DNA of 64,000 bases, from assembly GCF_900112025.1 (NCBI RefSeq), contig NZ_FOKL01000002.1:210339-274338 (forward strand), in the 5' to 3' direction. Below are positions 49,101-54,622 of the stretch, one piece after another (within the stretch, counting starts at the first letter, position 1; the number at the start of each line of letters is the position of its first letter). The notes beneath the pieces were generated by a model, which saw only the letters and a list, made by a program, of their open reading frames with translations, had not been told where the DNA came from and ran no database searches. This DNA is from Janthinobacterium sp. 344 (GTDB lineage Bacteria; Pseudomonadota; Gammaproteobacteria; Burkholderiales; Burkholderiaceae_D). The translations under genes were made by a program, and so were the position numbers.

Positions 49101-50434
49101 GCCGGATCGAAGCGGTGCAGGCCCGTCGAGCCGCCCACCCACAAGGTGCCGTCCGGCGCCTTGTACAGGGTCGTCACCTGCTCGTCGCGCGACATGCCGG
49201 GCGCGCTGCCCAGGTCGAACAGCTGCGAGCTGCCGTCGCGCGTGTCGTACAGTTTCAAGCCGCCTTTGGTGGCCAGCCACAGCTTGCCGTTGCCCGCATC
49301 GGCCACCGCCCGCACCTTCTTGTCCGCCAGCGCCCCCACGTCGCCCGGCGCGCGCGCCATGCGCGCAAAGCCGCCGCTGCCCAGGTCGACCCGGCTCACG
49401 CCGTTGTACCAGGAGCCGACCCAGAAGGTGCCCGCGCGGTCGCGGTACAAGGACGACAGCTGGTTGTCGGCGACGCTGAACTTGTCGCCCGTCTGGTGGC
49501 GGTACTGCAGGAAGGTGTCACTTTCGGGCAGCCAGCGGAACAGGCCATCGGCATTGCTGCCCACCCAGACGGTGGCATCGACATCCTGGTACAGGCTGGC
49601 CACGCGGATGGCGGAAAATCCGTGTTTTTCACTCAGGCGCACGCGCGCCTGGGGCGCCTGTCCGGCTCCGCCAAGACGCCAGCGCTCGACGCCGGCCATG
49701 GTGCCGATCCACAGATTCTGCTGGCGGTCGACCAGCAGCGACTGGATCACGTTGTATTTGGAAGCGGCGTCCGCGTCGATGGCAAAATGCTCGAAGCGCT
49801 CGCTGCCCGGCGCCAGCATGTCCAGGCCCGTGACGGTACCGATCCACAGGCGATTTTGCGCATCCATGGCCAGGGCCTTGATTTCATTGTCGCCCAGGCT
49901 GTGCGGATTGCCCTCTTCATGGTGCCAGGTGCGAAAGCGGCCCGTGGCCGGATCAAAATGCTGCAAGCCATCCGCCGTGGCGATCCAGAAGCCGCGCGCG
50001 CCATCGTCGAGGATGGCGCGGATATGCCGGTTGCCGTTGCCGCGCCGGCTCTTTTCCGCCAGCCCATAATGGATGAAGGTCTGGCTGGCCGCGTCGAAGC
50101 GGTCCAGGCCATTGTCCGTGCCGATCCACAGCTGGCCCTGCTTATCGACATGCAGCTGGCCCACCCAGTTGTCGGCCAGGCTGGTCTTGTCGCCCTCGAT
50201 ATTCTTGTAGACCACCATGCGGTAGCCATCGAAACGGCTGAGGCCAGACTGGCTGCCGAACCACATGAAGCCTTGCCGGTCCTGCGCGATGGCCAGCACG
50301 GATTCCTGCGCCAGGCCCTGTTCGACGCTGAGCTGGTCGAAACGCAGGGTGGGCGCAGGCGCGGCCCTGGCCCAGCCACTCAACAGTAGACTGAATAACA
50401 ACACCACATCGCAAGCACGTCGGAATACCAGCAC
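46172..50434 (-). pseudogene. Propeller-type hybrid sensor histidine kinase interrupted by an in-frame TAA
   Basis: The gene would encode about 1,420 aa but has a TAA at 47528-47530, after residue 968. The two parts lie in the same frame. Starting at GTG 50434: signal peptide (1-24), about a dozen two-component propeller repeats ([32 protein letters not shown] and similar), a Y_Y_Y domain ([14 protein letters not shown]), a membrane helix ([15 protein letters not shown]), a coiled coil and HisKA with His908 ([11 protein letters not shown]). Beyond the stop: HATPase (VNLVGNAFKFT, GGTGLGLAICRQL), a receiver (LILMDGRMPEMDG) and an HPt domain (LLHGLKGSAAYL). The family usually senses carbohydrates. 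A GAA-to-TAA change at the GKLSI/NIDFALG junction would explain it; a sequence error is possible. Confidence 0.85.
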
Positions 50435-50446
50435 AGTCGCCCTGTC

Positions 50447-50480
50447 AAAAAAACGCGAAAACTCCGGGAACGCTTCCCGG
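50447..50480 (-). terminator. Rho-independent terminator of the patatin-like gene
   Basis: On the minus strand CCGGGAA, a three-base loop and TTCCCGG are followed by AGTTTTCGCG and seven T residues. It begins 8 bases after the stop codon at 50489 and separates that gene from the kinase. Confidence 0.75.
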
Positions 50481-50488
50481 GGGCCGTC

Positions 50489-51658
50489 TCAAGAACCAAA
50501 AAACGCCAGTACATCGTCCTTGCGGGCCTGCGTATCGCGCTGTCCAAGACGGATCAGCTCGTTAGTATACGTCGATTCGAACAATAAATACGATGCCAGT
50601 GCCGCACCGCGGGCCTCGGCCGCGCCGATACCCGACAACATGGTGCGGATGGGACGGGGCAAACTGCCGATATGCCGGCTGGCGATGGCATCGAGCCGCT
50701 CGGACGGCGCGATCACCAGCAGCTCCACGGGCCGCAAGGCCGTCTTGCCCAGCAATTCGGGCGGCAGCATCGACAGGGTCAGGTTGATGCGGTTCAGGCG
50801 CTCGATGTCGACGGCCAGGCCATCGAGGAAGATCGACGACAGCGCATGGCCGGCGATCTGCGCCAGGCTGGGATAGCGCGCCGATTCGGCCGCGCCCGGA
50901 GCCGGTTCCGTCATGCGCCCCGCGCCCACCACCAGCACCTTGTTGGCGCCCAGGTGGATGGCCGGCGAGATCGGCGCCAGCTGGCGCATCGAACCGTCGC
51001 CGCAGTATTCGCGCTGGCCGCCCACATACAGGGGCACGGCGGGAAAAATGAAGGGAATGGCGGCCGAGGCCAGCAAGTGCTCCACGCCGATCTGGTCCGG
51101 CAAGGCCAGGCGCTGCGTGCGCACCCAGGGCGCGATATCCTCGGCCGTCTGGTAAAACGTCATGTGGCGGCTGCCCGAATACGACGACGCCGTGACGGCC
51201 AGCGCATGCAGCAGGCCATCGGCCAGCGCGGCGTCCAGGCGCGGCAGGTCGAGCATGCGGTGCAGCAGGCTGACCAGCGGTGTATTGTCGAGCAGGGAAT
51301 TGGGCGGCGAGGCGTGCCACTGGCGCAGCAGCCAGCCAAACGACAGCAAGGACAGCCAGCGCGCCCCCGAGCGCAGCACGCCCAGCGAATCGGCACGGTA
51401 CACCTGCTCCACCTCGATATGCTGCCACACGTCGAGCAGCTTTTGCACGCCCTCGCCGAAATTGTCGGCGCGGCAGGCCAGCGCCGTGGCGTTGATGGCG
51501 CCGGCCGAGGTGCCGCAGATGATGTCGAACGGGTTGCGCGCCGGCGCCCAGCCCGCTTCCCACAGAATCGCCGAAATCGCCTGCAGCACCCCCACCTGGT
51601 AGGCGGCACGGGCGCCCCCTCCCGTAAGTATCAAGCCGGTTTTATTTTGCATTCCCAT
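50489..51658 (-). CDS. Patatin-like phospholipase family protein
   Basis: A 389-aa serine hydrolase. The N-terminal oxyanion motif is GLILTGGGARAAYQVGVLQ (residues 8-26), the nucleophile is in ICGTSAGAINATAL (GxSxG, near residue 50), and the Asp of the dyad is in YCGDGSMRQLAPISPAIHLG (near 220). No signal peptide is present, so it is probably cytoplasmic or a surface-associated lipase exported by another route. The C-terminal 100 residues carry basic and hydrophobic helices and may contact membranes. Patatin-like enzymes hydrolyse acyl-lipids; the substrate is unknown. It lies upstream of the kinase gene but is separated by a terminator, so it is probably a single-gene unit. Confidence 0.88.
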   Translation of the reverse strand: MGMQNKTGLILTGGGARAAYQVGVLQAISAILWEAGWAPARNPFDIICGTSAGAINATALACRADNFGEGVQKLLDVWQHIEVEQVYRADSLGVLRSGARWLSLLSFGWLLRQWHASPPNSLLDNTPLVSLLHRMLDLPRLDAALADGLLHALAVTASSYSGSRHMTFYQTAEDIAPWVRTQRLALPDQIGVEHLLASAAIPFIFPAVPLYVGGQREYCGDGSMRQLAPISPAIHLGANKVLVVGAGRMTEPAPGAAESARYPSLAQIAGHALSSIFLDGLAVDIERLNRINLTLSMLPPELLGKTALRPVELLVIAPSERLDAIASRHIGSLPRPIRTMLSGIGAAEARGAALASYLLFESTYTNELIRLGQRDTQARKDDVLAFFGS

Positions 51659-51743
51659 GCCGGCAGATTAGCAGGGTCTTGATACTTTGTGGAAAAGTTT
51701 GGAAGGCAGGCGCCAGTTCCTGCAGGTATATTGTTTGCATCAC

Positions 51744-51876
51744 GGCGCCGGACAAAACCGTAGCGAGCGGAAGGGAGAGGCGGCTAAGAAGCGCCCCCGT
51801 ACTAAGTACGGGGGCGCCGAGGCGGTGAGCATCGCAGGCCGCCTATACCGACGCGCAGCAGGTTTGGTCCGGTGCC
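51744..51876. repeat. Nested inverted-repeat element (candidate structured RNA or dispersed repeat)
   Basis: Three nested pairings share one axis: 51744-51759 with 51861-51876 (14 of 16 Watson-Crick, plus one G-U), 51778-51784 with 51838-51844 (seven perfect), and a central hairpin at 51791-51817 with a perfect 12-bp stem (GCGCCCCCGTAC) and a TAA loop. The element starts one base after the ggt stop codon and lies upstream of the patatin-like gene. No T-tract follows, so it is not a plain terminator. Confidence 0.65.
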
Positions 51877-51877
51877 C

Positions 51878-53653
51878 CTAATCGCCCCGGACCATGCCTT
51901 CACGGCGCGGGTCGGCGCCGCCAAACCAGAAATCCTTGCCATGCGCATTCAGGCGCATGATGCCCTGCAAGCCCGAGTTCTGCTCGATGACGCGCACCTC
52001 ATGGCCCATGGCCTGCAGCGCCTCGACCTGGGCGGCCGGCGCGCGGCCTTTTTCCAGCTCCGTCGGACCGTTGCGGCTGCCGAAGTTCGGCAGGCTGATG
52101 GCTTGCTGCACGTTCAGGCCCCAGTCCATGGTGCCGACCAGGACCTTGGCGACATAGTTGATGATGGACGAGCCGCCCGGCGAGCCGGTGGCCAGCACCA
52201 GCTTGTGCGTGCCCTTTTCAAACACCAACGTGGGCGACATGGCGCTGCGCGGGCGCTTGCCGGCCTCGACCCGGTTGGCGATGGGACCATCGGCATCGCG
52301 CGAATCGAACGAGAAATCCGTCAGCTGGTTATTCAGCAAAAAGCCGTCGACCATCTGGCGCGAGCCGAAGGCGTCTTCCACGCTGGTGGTCATCGACAGG
52401 CCGCCGCCGAAAGCGTCGACGGCCACCAGGTGCGAGGTCGATGGGCGCTGCAGCGCGTTGTCCATGCCCCACGCCACCTGCATGCCGGGCGGCGTGCCGG
52501 GCAAGGCCTTGCCCATGGATTTGTCGCCGATCAGCGAGGCGCGCTGCGCCAGATAGGTTTGATCGAGCATCGAGGCGATGCCCTTGCCCGGCAGCGGCAC
52601 GAAGTCCGTATCGGCCACGTAGCGGTTGCGGTCCGCGTAGGCCAGGCGTCCCGCTTCCGAGAACAAATGGATCGCCTGCGCGTCGAGCACGCCGTCGACA
52701 GGCGGATACGGACGGATATCCTTCACTTCCAGGATGCCCAGCATTTGCGCGATGGCGATGCCGCCCGACGATGGCGGCGGCATGCCGCACACGGTCCAGG
52801 CCTTGTAGTCGCTGCAGACGGGTTCGCGCACCTTGGCGCGATAGCCGGCGATGTCAAGCGCCGTCAGCTTGCCCGGGTTGCTCGGGTGCGATGCCACCTT
52901 GGCGGCGATGTCGCGCGCGATGCGGCCCTGGTAAAAGGCGTCGGCGCCGCCGCGGGCGATCTCGCGCAGGGTGCGCGCCAGCTGCGGGTTCTTCAGCACA
53001 TGGCCGACGGGCCAGGCCTTGCCATCCTGGTCGTAGAAATACGCGGCGGCGACGGGGTCGCGCTTCAGGGCCTGGTCCCAGTTCAGCAAACCATTGAGAC
53101 GCTGGCTGACGGGAAAACCGCCGTGCGCCAGGCGGATGGCGGGGCCGAACAGGGTCGCCCACGGCAGCTTGCCGTGCTCCTTGTGCGCCAGTTCCAGCAT
53201 GCGCAGCACGCCCGGCGCGCCCACGGAGCGCCCGCCCACCACGCCCGTGGCGCGCGAAACGGGACTGCCGTCCGGATTCTGGAACAGGTGTTCATCGGCG
53301 GCGGCGGGCGCCGTTTCGCGTCCGTCGAACGCTTGCACGCCCTTGGCGGTGGAGTACAGCAGGAAGGCGCCGCCGCCGATGCCCGACGATTGCGGCTCGA
53401 CCAACGTGAGCACCAGCTGCGTGGCGATGGCCGCGTCGATGGCGCTGCCGCCCTTTTTCAGCATCTGGTAGCCGGCATCGGCGGCCAGCGGATTGGCGGC
53501 GGCCACCATGAATTTCTGCGCCGCCCAGCCACTTTTTTCCGCGTAGGCAGTGGCGATTTCCGGCGCCTTTTGCGGCACCTCGGCAAATGCGGGACTGGCG
53601 GCCAGGGTCCCCAGCAAGGTCAGGCTCAGCGCCAGCGGCTTCAATGTGATCAT
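51878..53653 (-). CDS. ggt: Gamma-glutamyltransferase
   Basis: A 591-aa periplasmic enzyme that cleaves glutathione and other gamma-glutamyl compounds. The ATG at 53653 follows CGGAGAA and gives a signal peptide (MITLKPLALSLTLLGTLA, ending AFA). The large subunit contains QSSGIGGGAFLLYS and the RETAPAAAD substrate-binding Arg. Autoprocessing should occur before the Thr of RPSTSHLVAVDAFGGGLSM (near residue 410), which becomes the catalytic residue of the small subunit; GSPGGSSIINYVAKV and the C-terminal GADPRREGMVRGD complete the signatures. A terminator-like hairpin occupies the leader just before the ribosome site. Confidence 0.93.
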   Translation of the reverse strand: MITLKPLALSLTLLGTLAASPAFAEVPQKAPEIATAYAEKSGWAAQKFMVAAANPLAADAGYQMLKKGGSAIDAAIATQLVLTLVEPQSSGIGGGAFLLYSTAKGVQAFDGRETAPAAADEHLFQNPDGSPVSRATGVVGGRSVGAPGVLRMLELAHKEHGKLPWATLFGPAIRLAHGGFPVSQRLNGLLNWDQALKRDPVAAAYFYDQDGKAWPVGHVLKNPQLARTLREIARGGADAFYQGRIARDIAAKVASHPSNPGKLTALDIAGYRAKVREPVCSDYKAWTVCGMPPPSSGGIAIAQMLGILEVKDIRPYPPVDGVLDAQAIHLFSEAGRLAYADRNRYVADTDFVPLPGKGIASMLDQTYLAQRASLIGDKSMGKALPGTPPGMQVAWGMDNALQRPSTSHLVAVDAFGGGLSMTTSVEDAFGSRQMVDGFLLNNQLTDFSFDSRDADGPIANRVEAGKRPRSAMSPTLVFEKGTHKLVLATGSPGGSSIINYVAKVLVGTMDWGLNVQQAISLPNFGSRNGPTELEKGRAPAAQVEALQAMGHEVRVIEQNSGLQGIMRLNAHGKDFWFGGADPRREGMVRGD

Positions 53654-53665
53654 GGATTCTCCGAT

Positions 53666-53702
53666 AAAAAAAGGGCGCACAGCCGAGCAAGGCTGTACGC
53701 CC
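53666..53702 (-). terminator. Strong terminator hairpin directly in the ggt leader
   Basis: On the minus strand a 12-bp stem (GGGCGTACAGCC with GGCTGTGCGCCC, one G-U pair) and a six-base loop are followed by seven T residues, and the ggt ribosome site CGGAGAA starts about three bases later. It may end the upstream dehydrogenase transcript (stop at 53864) or attenuate ggt. Confidence 0.75.
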
Positions 53703-53863
53703 CATACGGGGGTATCCTACATCAAATGCCCATGAGGGCGCTGCCTGCGTGAGAGTGCCTGGCGATGTCCCGGGCCAGGCGCGTGACCGAAGACAGTACG
53801 AATAGTACAAAGCATGACAAACCCGGGCCATGCAACAACGCCCTGGGCATTGTCCAGGTGCTC

Positions 53864-54622
53864 TTATTTCGGTTGCATGCGGATCGCACCGTCCAGACGG
53901 ATGGACTCGCCATTGAGCATGACGTTTTCCACGATGGCCTTCACCAGCTGCGCGTATTCGCCGGGCTTGCCCAGGCGCGACGGGAACGGCACCATCTTGC
54001 CCAGCGCATCCTGCACTTCGGCCGGCATGCCCAGCAACATCGGCGTTTCGAAGATGCCGGGCGCCACCGTCATGACGCGGATGCCGTTGCGCGACAGGTC
54101 GCGCGCCATCGGCAGGGTCAGGCCCACCACGGCCGCCTTCGACGACGCATAGGCCGCCTGGCCGATCTGGCCGTCATACGCCGCCACGGACGCCGTGTTG
54201 ATGATGACGCCGCGCTCGCCTTCCGCCGTGGCCTCCTGTTTCGCCATGGCGTCGGCCGCCAGGCGGCACATATTGAAGGTGCCCACCAGGTTGATGTTGA
54301 CGACTTTCTGGAACAGGGCCAGCGGGTGCGGTCCATCCTTGCCCACGGTTTTCACGGCCGGCGCCACGCCGGCGCAGTTGACCAGGCCGCGCAAGGTACC
54401 CAGCTTGCCCGCCGCCGCCACCACCGCCATGCCGTCTTCCTCGGACGTCACGTCGCATTGCACGAACACGCCATGCAGCTCGGCGGCCAGCGCCTGGCCC
54501 GCCTCGGTCTGCACGTCGGCCAGCACGACCTTGCCGCCCGCCGCCGTCAGCATGCGCGCCGTCGCCGCGCCCAGGCCCGACGCGCCGCCCGTGATGATGA
54601 ATACATTGTCCTGAATCTGCAT
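53864..54622 (-). CDS. 3-hydroxyacyl-CoA dehydrogenase, SDR type (HSD17B10-like)
   Basis: A 252-aa SDR. NAD-binding IITGGASGLGAATARMLTAAG (residues 9-29), LVNCAGVAPAVKTVGKDG, Ser in IINTASVAAYDGQIG, Tyr/Lys in YASSKAAVVGLTLPMARDL, and VAPGIFETPMLLGMP. The NCAGVAPA/GKDGPHPL stretch and the C-terminal MLNGESIRLDGAIRM are typical of type-2 3-hydroxyacyl-CoA dehydrogenases used in fatty-acid and branched-chain amino-acid breakdown. A perfect palindrome at 54701-54720 upstream resembles LiuR-type operators. It appears to be a single-gene unit ending at the terminator-like hairpin at 53666-53702. Confidence 0.9.
   Translation of the reverse strand: MQIQDNVFIITGGASGLGAATARMLTAAGGKVVLADVQTEAGQALAAELHGVFVQCDVTSEEDGMAVVAAAGKLGTLRGLVNCAGVAPAVKTVGKDGPHPLALFQKVVNINLVGTFNMCRLAADAMAKQEATAEGERGVIINTASVAAYDGQIGQAAYASSKAAVVGLTLPMARDLSRNGIRVMTVAPGIFETPMLLGMPAEVQDALGKMVPFPSRLGKPGEYAQLVKAIVENVMLNGESIRLDGAIRMQPK

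Follow-up and report, generated by a model that had tools for sequence, protein, structure and literature searches.

A dispersed element at the 3' end of ggt in Janthinobacterium: a probable IS5-type MITE with an old folded core, oriented at stop codons

Analysis of a 64,000-nucleotide stretch of DNA from Janthinobacterium sp. 344 (the window) revealed that the inverted-repeat element abutting the 3' end of ggt belongs to a dispersed family, for which a MITE is the best reading. The element is repeated in the genome, is present or absent at orthologous sites among relatives, carries arms resembling the ends of IS elements and folds into a structure that covaries across its copies; in its relatives outside the genus, target duplications are found. 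It is quite probable that the family is a MITE moved by IS5-type elements, with an old folded core, and that its Janthinobacterium copies have been retained in one orientation at stop codons. An initial annotation, made from the letters of the sequence, had proposed a dispersed repeat, a structured RNA or a small non-autonomous element; its interpretation is supported overall, and the last of these three readings fits best.

The ggt element, its fold and its copies

The nested inverted-repeat structure that the annotation had placed at 51744-51876 was confirmed by refolding, in its coordinates as well as its pairings. The outer arm (51744-51759) pairs with 51861-51876 through 14 Watson-Crick pairs and one G-U pair, with one mismatch, over 16 positions; the middle arm joins 51778-51784 to 51838-51844, and the perfect 12-bp apical hairpin (51791-51802 with 51806-51817) closes on the loop TAA. 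The minimum free energy of this fold is -84.8 kcal/mol; 200 dinucleotide shuffles gave -60.85 +/- 4.23 (z -5.66), and not one of them reached an energy as low. The covariance-model match at ggt is full-length (51739-51884, 160 bits), and the only ORF spanning the element is of 64 amino acids; the element has no transposase gene of its own. Beyond the earlier description, we found that the ggt stop codon, which reads CTA on the + strand (51878-51880), starts one base beyond the outer arm. The features of the locus are as follows:

51743..51877, + (the orientation of the family core): whole element, terminal repeat to terminal repeat (51744-51876 paired), from the fold and the model match
51743..51759, +: left outer arm and terminal inverted repeat, family consensus C[GA]ACGCCT[GA]ACAAAACC
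51861..51877, -: right outer arm and terminal inverted repeat, from pairing and covariation
51760..51770, +: conserved 5' core motif GTAGCGAGCGG, from alignments
51778..51784, +: middle stem, 5' side (helix 6; both sides have changed in 4 of its 7 pairs)
51791..51817, +: apical 12-bp hairpin, long form, from the fold
51825..51835, +: conserved core motif GTGAGCATCGC, from alignments
51838..51844, +: middle stem, 3' side, from fold and covariation
51849..51862, +: conserved 3' core motif CGACGCGCAGCAGG, from alignments
51878..51880, -: ggt stop codon (TAG), one base away from the right arm and at the site expected for a TNA target duplication
51740..51742, +: TCA at the left mirror position, a candidate decayed target duplication that differs from the right CTA
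51701..51742, no strand: left spacer, borders +/- 3 nt, from the comparison of relatives
51878..53680, -: ggt, its 3' end abutted by the element (ORF call; name from the initial annotation)
50489..51658, -: gene downstream of ggt in the same direction (ORF call), whose product, named from sequence, is presumably patatin-like

Like an intrinsic terminator, the element is a GC-rich hairpin at a gene end; unlike one, it has no T-tract, as the annotation had pointed out, and a consensus terminator scan over 51600-52000 returned 0 sites. An intrinsic terminator was rejected on this lack of a T-run after the stem. A consensus scan of the same interval, the one method applied, gave 0 sigma-70 promoter-like sites. 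Rfam covariance models run over 50000-54000 produced seven weak matches, none at the gathering cut-off and the best of them to MicL (21.8 bits against a threshold of 56), so that membership of a known RNA family was rejected.

That the structure might be a dispersed repeat proved correct. A first covariance model, built from 41 copies (alignment A1), found 111 matches in the genome at E <= 1e-3, and for 107 the E value was below 1e-7. Among the 60 relatives searched, 34 of the 36 same-genus genomes also had matches, many with at least 51. Two same-genus genomes, G013 and G034, each below 90% complete, had zero matches in this search, and four (G001, G021, G022 and G027) had one match each where most others carry dozens. 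By blastn, the own genome holds at least 44 matches (40 of 110 candidates scored), two of which are the apical hairpin on the reverse strand. The exact core pattern by which loci were drawn from the named GTDB collection gave at least 80 loci, all of them Janthinobacterium among the matches listed, and no blastn match to the ggt copy at E 1e-5 was found in plasmid and phage collections. Family members are 133-160 bp long. At one site (L028:4904-5381, that is G000:C13:70903-71380), three copies lie head to tail about 172 bp apart, the first two having lost their 3' half and their pairing.

Comparison of relatives showed that occupancy of individual sites is polymorphic. At ggt, the element is present in the own genome and in G014, G009 and G006 and absent from 16 of the 19 relatives compared; ggt ends at the same place in the relatives without it (16 of 19 aligned). 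The left spacer (51701..51742) is missing along with the element in the empty relatives, and in G006 it is replaced by unrelated sequence. Since the four carriers do not form one clade in a tree of ggt plus its neighbour, which requires 4 changes, loss or recombination has also acted at this site. When 11 own copies were mapped on 400 kb of G019, 7 were absent (with ambiguous borders in 2 of these 7 'empty' comparisons), 3 were shared, and 1 site held another repeat; the clearest layout is that of L121, filled as TTA[element]TTA against an empty TTA in G019. The G019 counterpart of L014:4985 carries a different repeat-rich insertion, GTAGGTCGGGTTAGCGCG-like, in the element's place.

The apical hairpin varies as well. 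The ggt copies of G014, G009 and G006 (L054, L056, L057) have a shorter one, so the 12-bp form is not fixed; the short form looks like the product of a deletion between CGG repeats, and the same long/short alternation separates L015 from its G019 counterpart. Directly past the ggt stop, G022 and G015 (L071 and L069) have hairpins other than this element (a long GGGGACAGACCACG.. palindrome; a short GC-rich stem), and the ggt site therefore seems to collect hairpins of different kinds.

Terminal repeats, partner elements and a shared core

The arms tie the family to IS5-type elements. Searching for DUF4096 (IS5-type) turned up elements in 15 of 37 genomes; among these elements, L342, L345, L346, L352 and L367 are IS5-type elements of 879-897 bp with terminal repeats GA[AG]CGCCTAACAAAAC; the left arm at 51743..51759 resembles their terminal inverted repeat GA[AG]CGCCTAACAAAACC, and a TTA/TTA duplication flanks the IS copies L342 and L367. 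Averaged over 179 copies, 13.0 of the 17 arm positions agree with the IS termini, compared with 6.2 for a shuffled arm; this gap is somewhat flattered, since the observed figure is the best of six windows and the control was taken over one. Several marks by which a MITE is recognized are found here, with terminal inverted repeats common to the element and an autonomous IS, presence or absence at orthologous sites, and no transposase of its own. The own genome carries degenerate or partial copies of the partner-IS ends (L361, L347), and the search gave 0 DUF4096 matches in several copy-rich genomes, among them G005 and G014, each with at least 51 copies. Near L347:864-2133 (G000:C26), two outward-facing partner-IS ends flank another DUF4096 element.

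In the IS5 family, target classes include the TNA of IS1031-like and the YTAR of IS5-like members (ISfinder). The transposase moving the element in trans would be of IS5 type (DUF4096), with short TNA- or YTAR-like sites as its targets. In support of this notion, the loci examined in G056, a genome of the same order from another family, hold 48 complete copies, and in 38 of these the same TNA triplet flanks the copy left and right (TAA 19, TTA 16, TCA 3). The same genome contains a 791-bp element with the same ends as these copies, a TTA duplication and a disrupted transposase; the longest open stretch of the latter has a DUF4096 match with E 2.2e-17. IS5-type transposition with TNA duplications is accordingly taken as the mechanism for the superfamily. 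For Janthinobacterium, the resemblance of the arms suggests that an IS of the L367 type may have moved the element; four tests for target duplications in this genus gave 0 significant results (11 of 89 copies vs 11.7 permuted, 4 of 89 vs 2.8, 11 of 179 vs 7.1 with p 0.08, and 7 of 59 vs 6.5), and TNA stands at the mirror position at 34% of both ends.

A second model, built from 26 copies from Janthinobacterium, G055, G056 and G059, revealed that the core extends well beyond the genus: of 274 genomes drawn from the class, 39 have matches at E <= 1e-6, the own one included (38 of 273 others). Among 23 distant copies, the ends vary between genomes and the motifs CGTcgCGAG, GgaGCGCAG, CGAGCAcCGC and cgCGCAG.AG recur; the first of these, in the 5' core, is conserved in the 23, and the G C. 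A G C G of the 5' core motif GTAGCGAGCGG is invariant across the 41 copies of A1. The distant copies, aligned by fitting to the model structure, show covariation at 30 of 37 pairs and pairing in 94.7% of cells, with 0 of 500 shuffles as high. A 4-nt direct repeat (TTAG, CTAG, CTAA and others) stands at the ends of 15 of the 23; permutation gives 4.6 on average and 11 at most. One widespread subfamily (L151, L154, L157, L161, L379, L375 and L377) has CAGGCTGTTGAAAAAC-like ends and 4-bp TTAG/CTAA/CTAG direct repeats, and is found in several families of the class. The picture would be that of an old superfamily whose members combine one folded core of about 100 nt with terminal repeats that differ among them.

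MITEs of IS5-type elements are an already known kind, and the present family shares with them its short length, the lack of a credible gene, IS5-like terminal inverted repeats, many copies and, in its relatives outside Janthinobacterium, 3- or 4-bp duplications. It differs from them in that the whole ggt-type element, not its ends alone, is a covarying rod, in that the core occurs with different ends in many genera, and in that the Janthinobacterium copies are oriented at stops and have undetectable duplications. As far as our searches of open-licence papers reach, a covarying interior that spans genera with changed ends, combined with oriented placement at stops, is undescribed; these papers gave no description of the family, short sequence strings being a weak probe. 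A covarying core with changing ends would offer a natural case in which to ask what the interior of a MITE is selected for.

Compensatory changes and placement at stop codons

Compensatory changes were found across the copies. The main covariation test was based on A1, a plain MAFFT alignment of 41 of 43 rows (two partial tandem copies were excluded), and the alignments A2-A5 were fitted to the model structure. In A1, 22 of 37 pairs show changes on both sides, with 0 of 500 shuffles as high, standard pairs make up 93.4% of cells, and none of the 500 shuffles reaches the alignment on any of five covariation measures. The outer ten pairs are all variable and covarying (10/10), and the signal vanishes when the partner column is slid by 1-3. 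Covariation counts, like the G.U and A.C counts below, do not represent independent events, because the copies share ancestry.

The annotation had also read the single G-U pair of the outer arm as a hint of selection for RNA pairing. The hint generalizes, since on the + strand the 89 own copies have 279 G.U against 56 A.C cells (69 against 28 in the outer ten pairs) and the 91 named-genome copies 316 against 52 (64 against 25 in the outer ten); the favoured strand, on the other hand, is antisense to ggt, and in general it differs from the strand that carries the mRNA sense of the gene next to the element. In 167 of 180 copies the + strand gives a better fold than the minus strand, an advantage for which composition accounts in part, because shuffled elements show it in 135 of 180. 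Taken from sequence comparison, these biases suggest that the element may act as RNA.

The placement analysis covered 89 of the 107 strong own copies, those with surroundings retrieved, and 87 of the 91 named-genome copies, four at the edge of a contig piece having been dropped, with genes defined by ORF and codon-model calls and not by curation. After merging of orthologous loci, a convergent stop (of an ORF of at least 100 codons) is found no more than 3 nt from the 3' end at 84 of 137 distinct Janthinobacterium loci and from the 5' end at 11 of 137, against a null of 8.9% (800 of 8998; every non-coding TNA site in both orientations). The 5' end thus fits the target-site null, whereas the 3' end is about sevenfold above it. 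In a wider window (-20 to +13), 75 of 89 own and 67 of 87 named-genome copies have the stop of an ORF of at least 100 codons at their 3' end; the same test gave 20 of 89 and 24 of 87 at the 5' end and 539 of 5000 for random intergenic points, and stops are met at both ends in 17 of 89 own and 18 of 87 named-genome copies. The stop offsets cluster at +1, -1, -2 and 0. In 6 own and 8 named copies the offset is -9, and a TGA inside the arm serves as the stop codon, so that the element itself supplies the gene's stop.

The neighbouring genes show the same asymmetry. Of the 89 own copies, 85 do not overlap called genes, and for 73 of them the right-hand gene runs on the minus strand, the left-hand gene pointing either way (40 minus-minus, 33 plus-minus, 8 plus-plus and 4 minus-plus). 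Oriented placement is not a general property of the superfamily, because the young-looking G056 family, with stops at 7 and 6 of 48 copies at the two ends, has no orientation or strong stop preference; for the 23 distant copies, the counts at the two ends are 13 and 7 in a similar window.

The transposon ends are alike and give no evident reason for an orientation, and the family with intact duplications is unoriented; from this we infer that the Janthinobacterium copies may be retained for a function at gene ends. Copies would be kept where the rod, beginning at the stop codon, helps the gene's 3' end. Starting where the last ribosome leaves, the rod could cap the mRNA against 3'-5' decay; alternatively, a rod in an antisense transcript could stop or process RNA arriving from downstream. 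The antisense option agrees better with the strand that tolerates G.U pairs. Tentatively, we also entertain the broader possibility that the family is a portable RNA-like core that swaps IS5-type ends class-wide and that, in Janthinobacterium, it has become an oriented 3'-end module of about 100 genes per genome, acting on RNA; within this portable-module reading, the RNA acted on would most likely be the antisense-strand transcript, and otherwise the mRNA. If the placement is functional, a transposon relic gives a uniform 3'-end module to about 100 unrelated genes per genome, and the presence/absence differences among close relatives make its effect testable gene by gene. Either way, annotation of gene ends and antisense RNAs in Janthinobacterium should consider the family.

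Alternative explanations and known repeats

The same placement would arise if the mobilizing machinery (a transposase, for example, or a reverse transcriptase working from an RNA copy) recognized stops or gene ends in one orientation, with no need for a function at the gene. We regard such oriented insertion as unlikely. It retains some weight because 6 of the 7 own copies absent from G019 lie at a 3'-end stop (the window copy, L036, L011, L018, L109 and L121, with L036 counted via a 64-codon ORF and L114 the only exception), and the tight clustering of the stop offsets is also in its favour. Against this, both ends carry the same terminal repeat, so that a DDE transposase should insert either way, the G056 copies with intact duplications meet stops about equally at the two ends, and only one of five IS copies (L367) ends at a stop, that of a 75-codon ORF, the others meeting none of at least 60 codons. 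As for the route through RNA, left spacers are hardly shared between paralogous copies: 54 left-flank matches were found, 6 of them without a right-flank match (two being ggt spacers and two belonging to the tandem array), and a retro-copy with an RNA leader was rejected because the left flanks of paralogues are hardly shared. Were the placement nevertheless due to insertion, the family would be a bacterial element that recognizes stop codons in one orientation, which would be mechanistically new.

The paired changes, for their part, could have arisen unselected, if replication switched templates from one arm of an imperfect palindrome to the other, the element being inert debris. Long rods are prone to such arm correction, and the long and short apical forms interchange at one locus, as this explanation would have it; yet template switching would neither favour G.U over A.C on one strand (69:28 and 64:25 in the outer ten pairs), nor preserve unpaired motifs, nor orient copies at stop codons, and we judge it improbable. 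More improbable still is a structured non-coding or regulatory RNA gene spread by duplication, its mobility incidental. The covariation, the G.U preference and a core conserved across many genera while the ends change would suit such a gene, but a consensus scan found no promoter-like site in 51600-52000, no Rfam model matched above threshold in 50000-54000, and the terminal repeats are of transposon type, with duplications in relatives.

Correia/NEMIS and ERIC elements, which by their consensus are probably a different sequence family from the ggt-type element, are comparable to it in kind. Correia/NEMIS and ERIC are hairpin-forming MITE-like repeats that alter mRNA processing, and ERIC at gene 3' ends can alter transcript levels by unmasking an RNase E site, according to a review (PMC10969869). 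A comparable stop-codon orientation was not seen in that review, where 'stop codon' and 'orientation' have 0 occurrences.

A REP/BIME-type repeat mobilized by a RAYT (Y1 transposase) is a highly improbable identity. REPs share with the present family a high copy number, a palindromic structure and a location mostly downstream of genes, and their GTAG ends often supply a TAG stop codon, as stated in PMC3733652; GTAG is also present in the core of the element, and the own genome has Y1_Tnp proteins. The REPs described there are, by contrast, 20-40 bp long with conserved GTAG or CGTC tags, whereas the ggt-type element measures 133-160 bp, has other ends, of IS5 type, and has no RAYT neighbour. 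GTAG is not conserved in the family (GTCG, GTTG and CTTAG variants occur among the 41 copies), and no element copy was found within 6.5-7 kb around each of the three own Y1_Tnp loci examined, the best match there having E 0.003 over 36 bases. REP/RAYT membership was rejected, as the family lacks an association with RAYT genes at these three loci, the GTAG/CGTC tag at the hairpin foot and the 20-40 bp size. The own Y1_Tnp (RAYT-like) genes lie at L173:3047-3787, L174:2873-3574 and L175, and each of the 22 same-genus relatives searched carries between 1 and at least 3 such genes.
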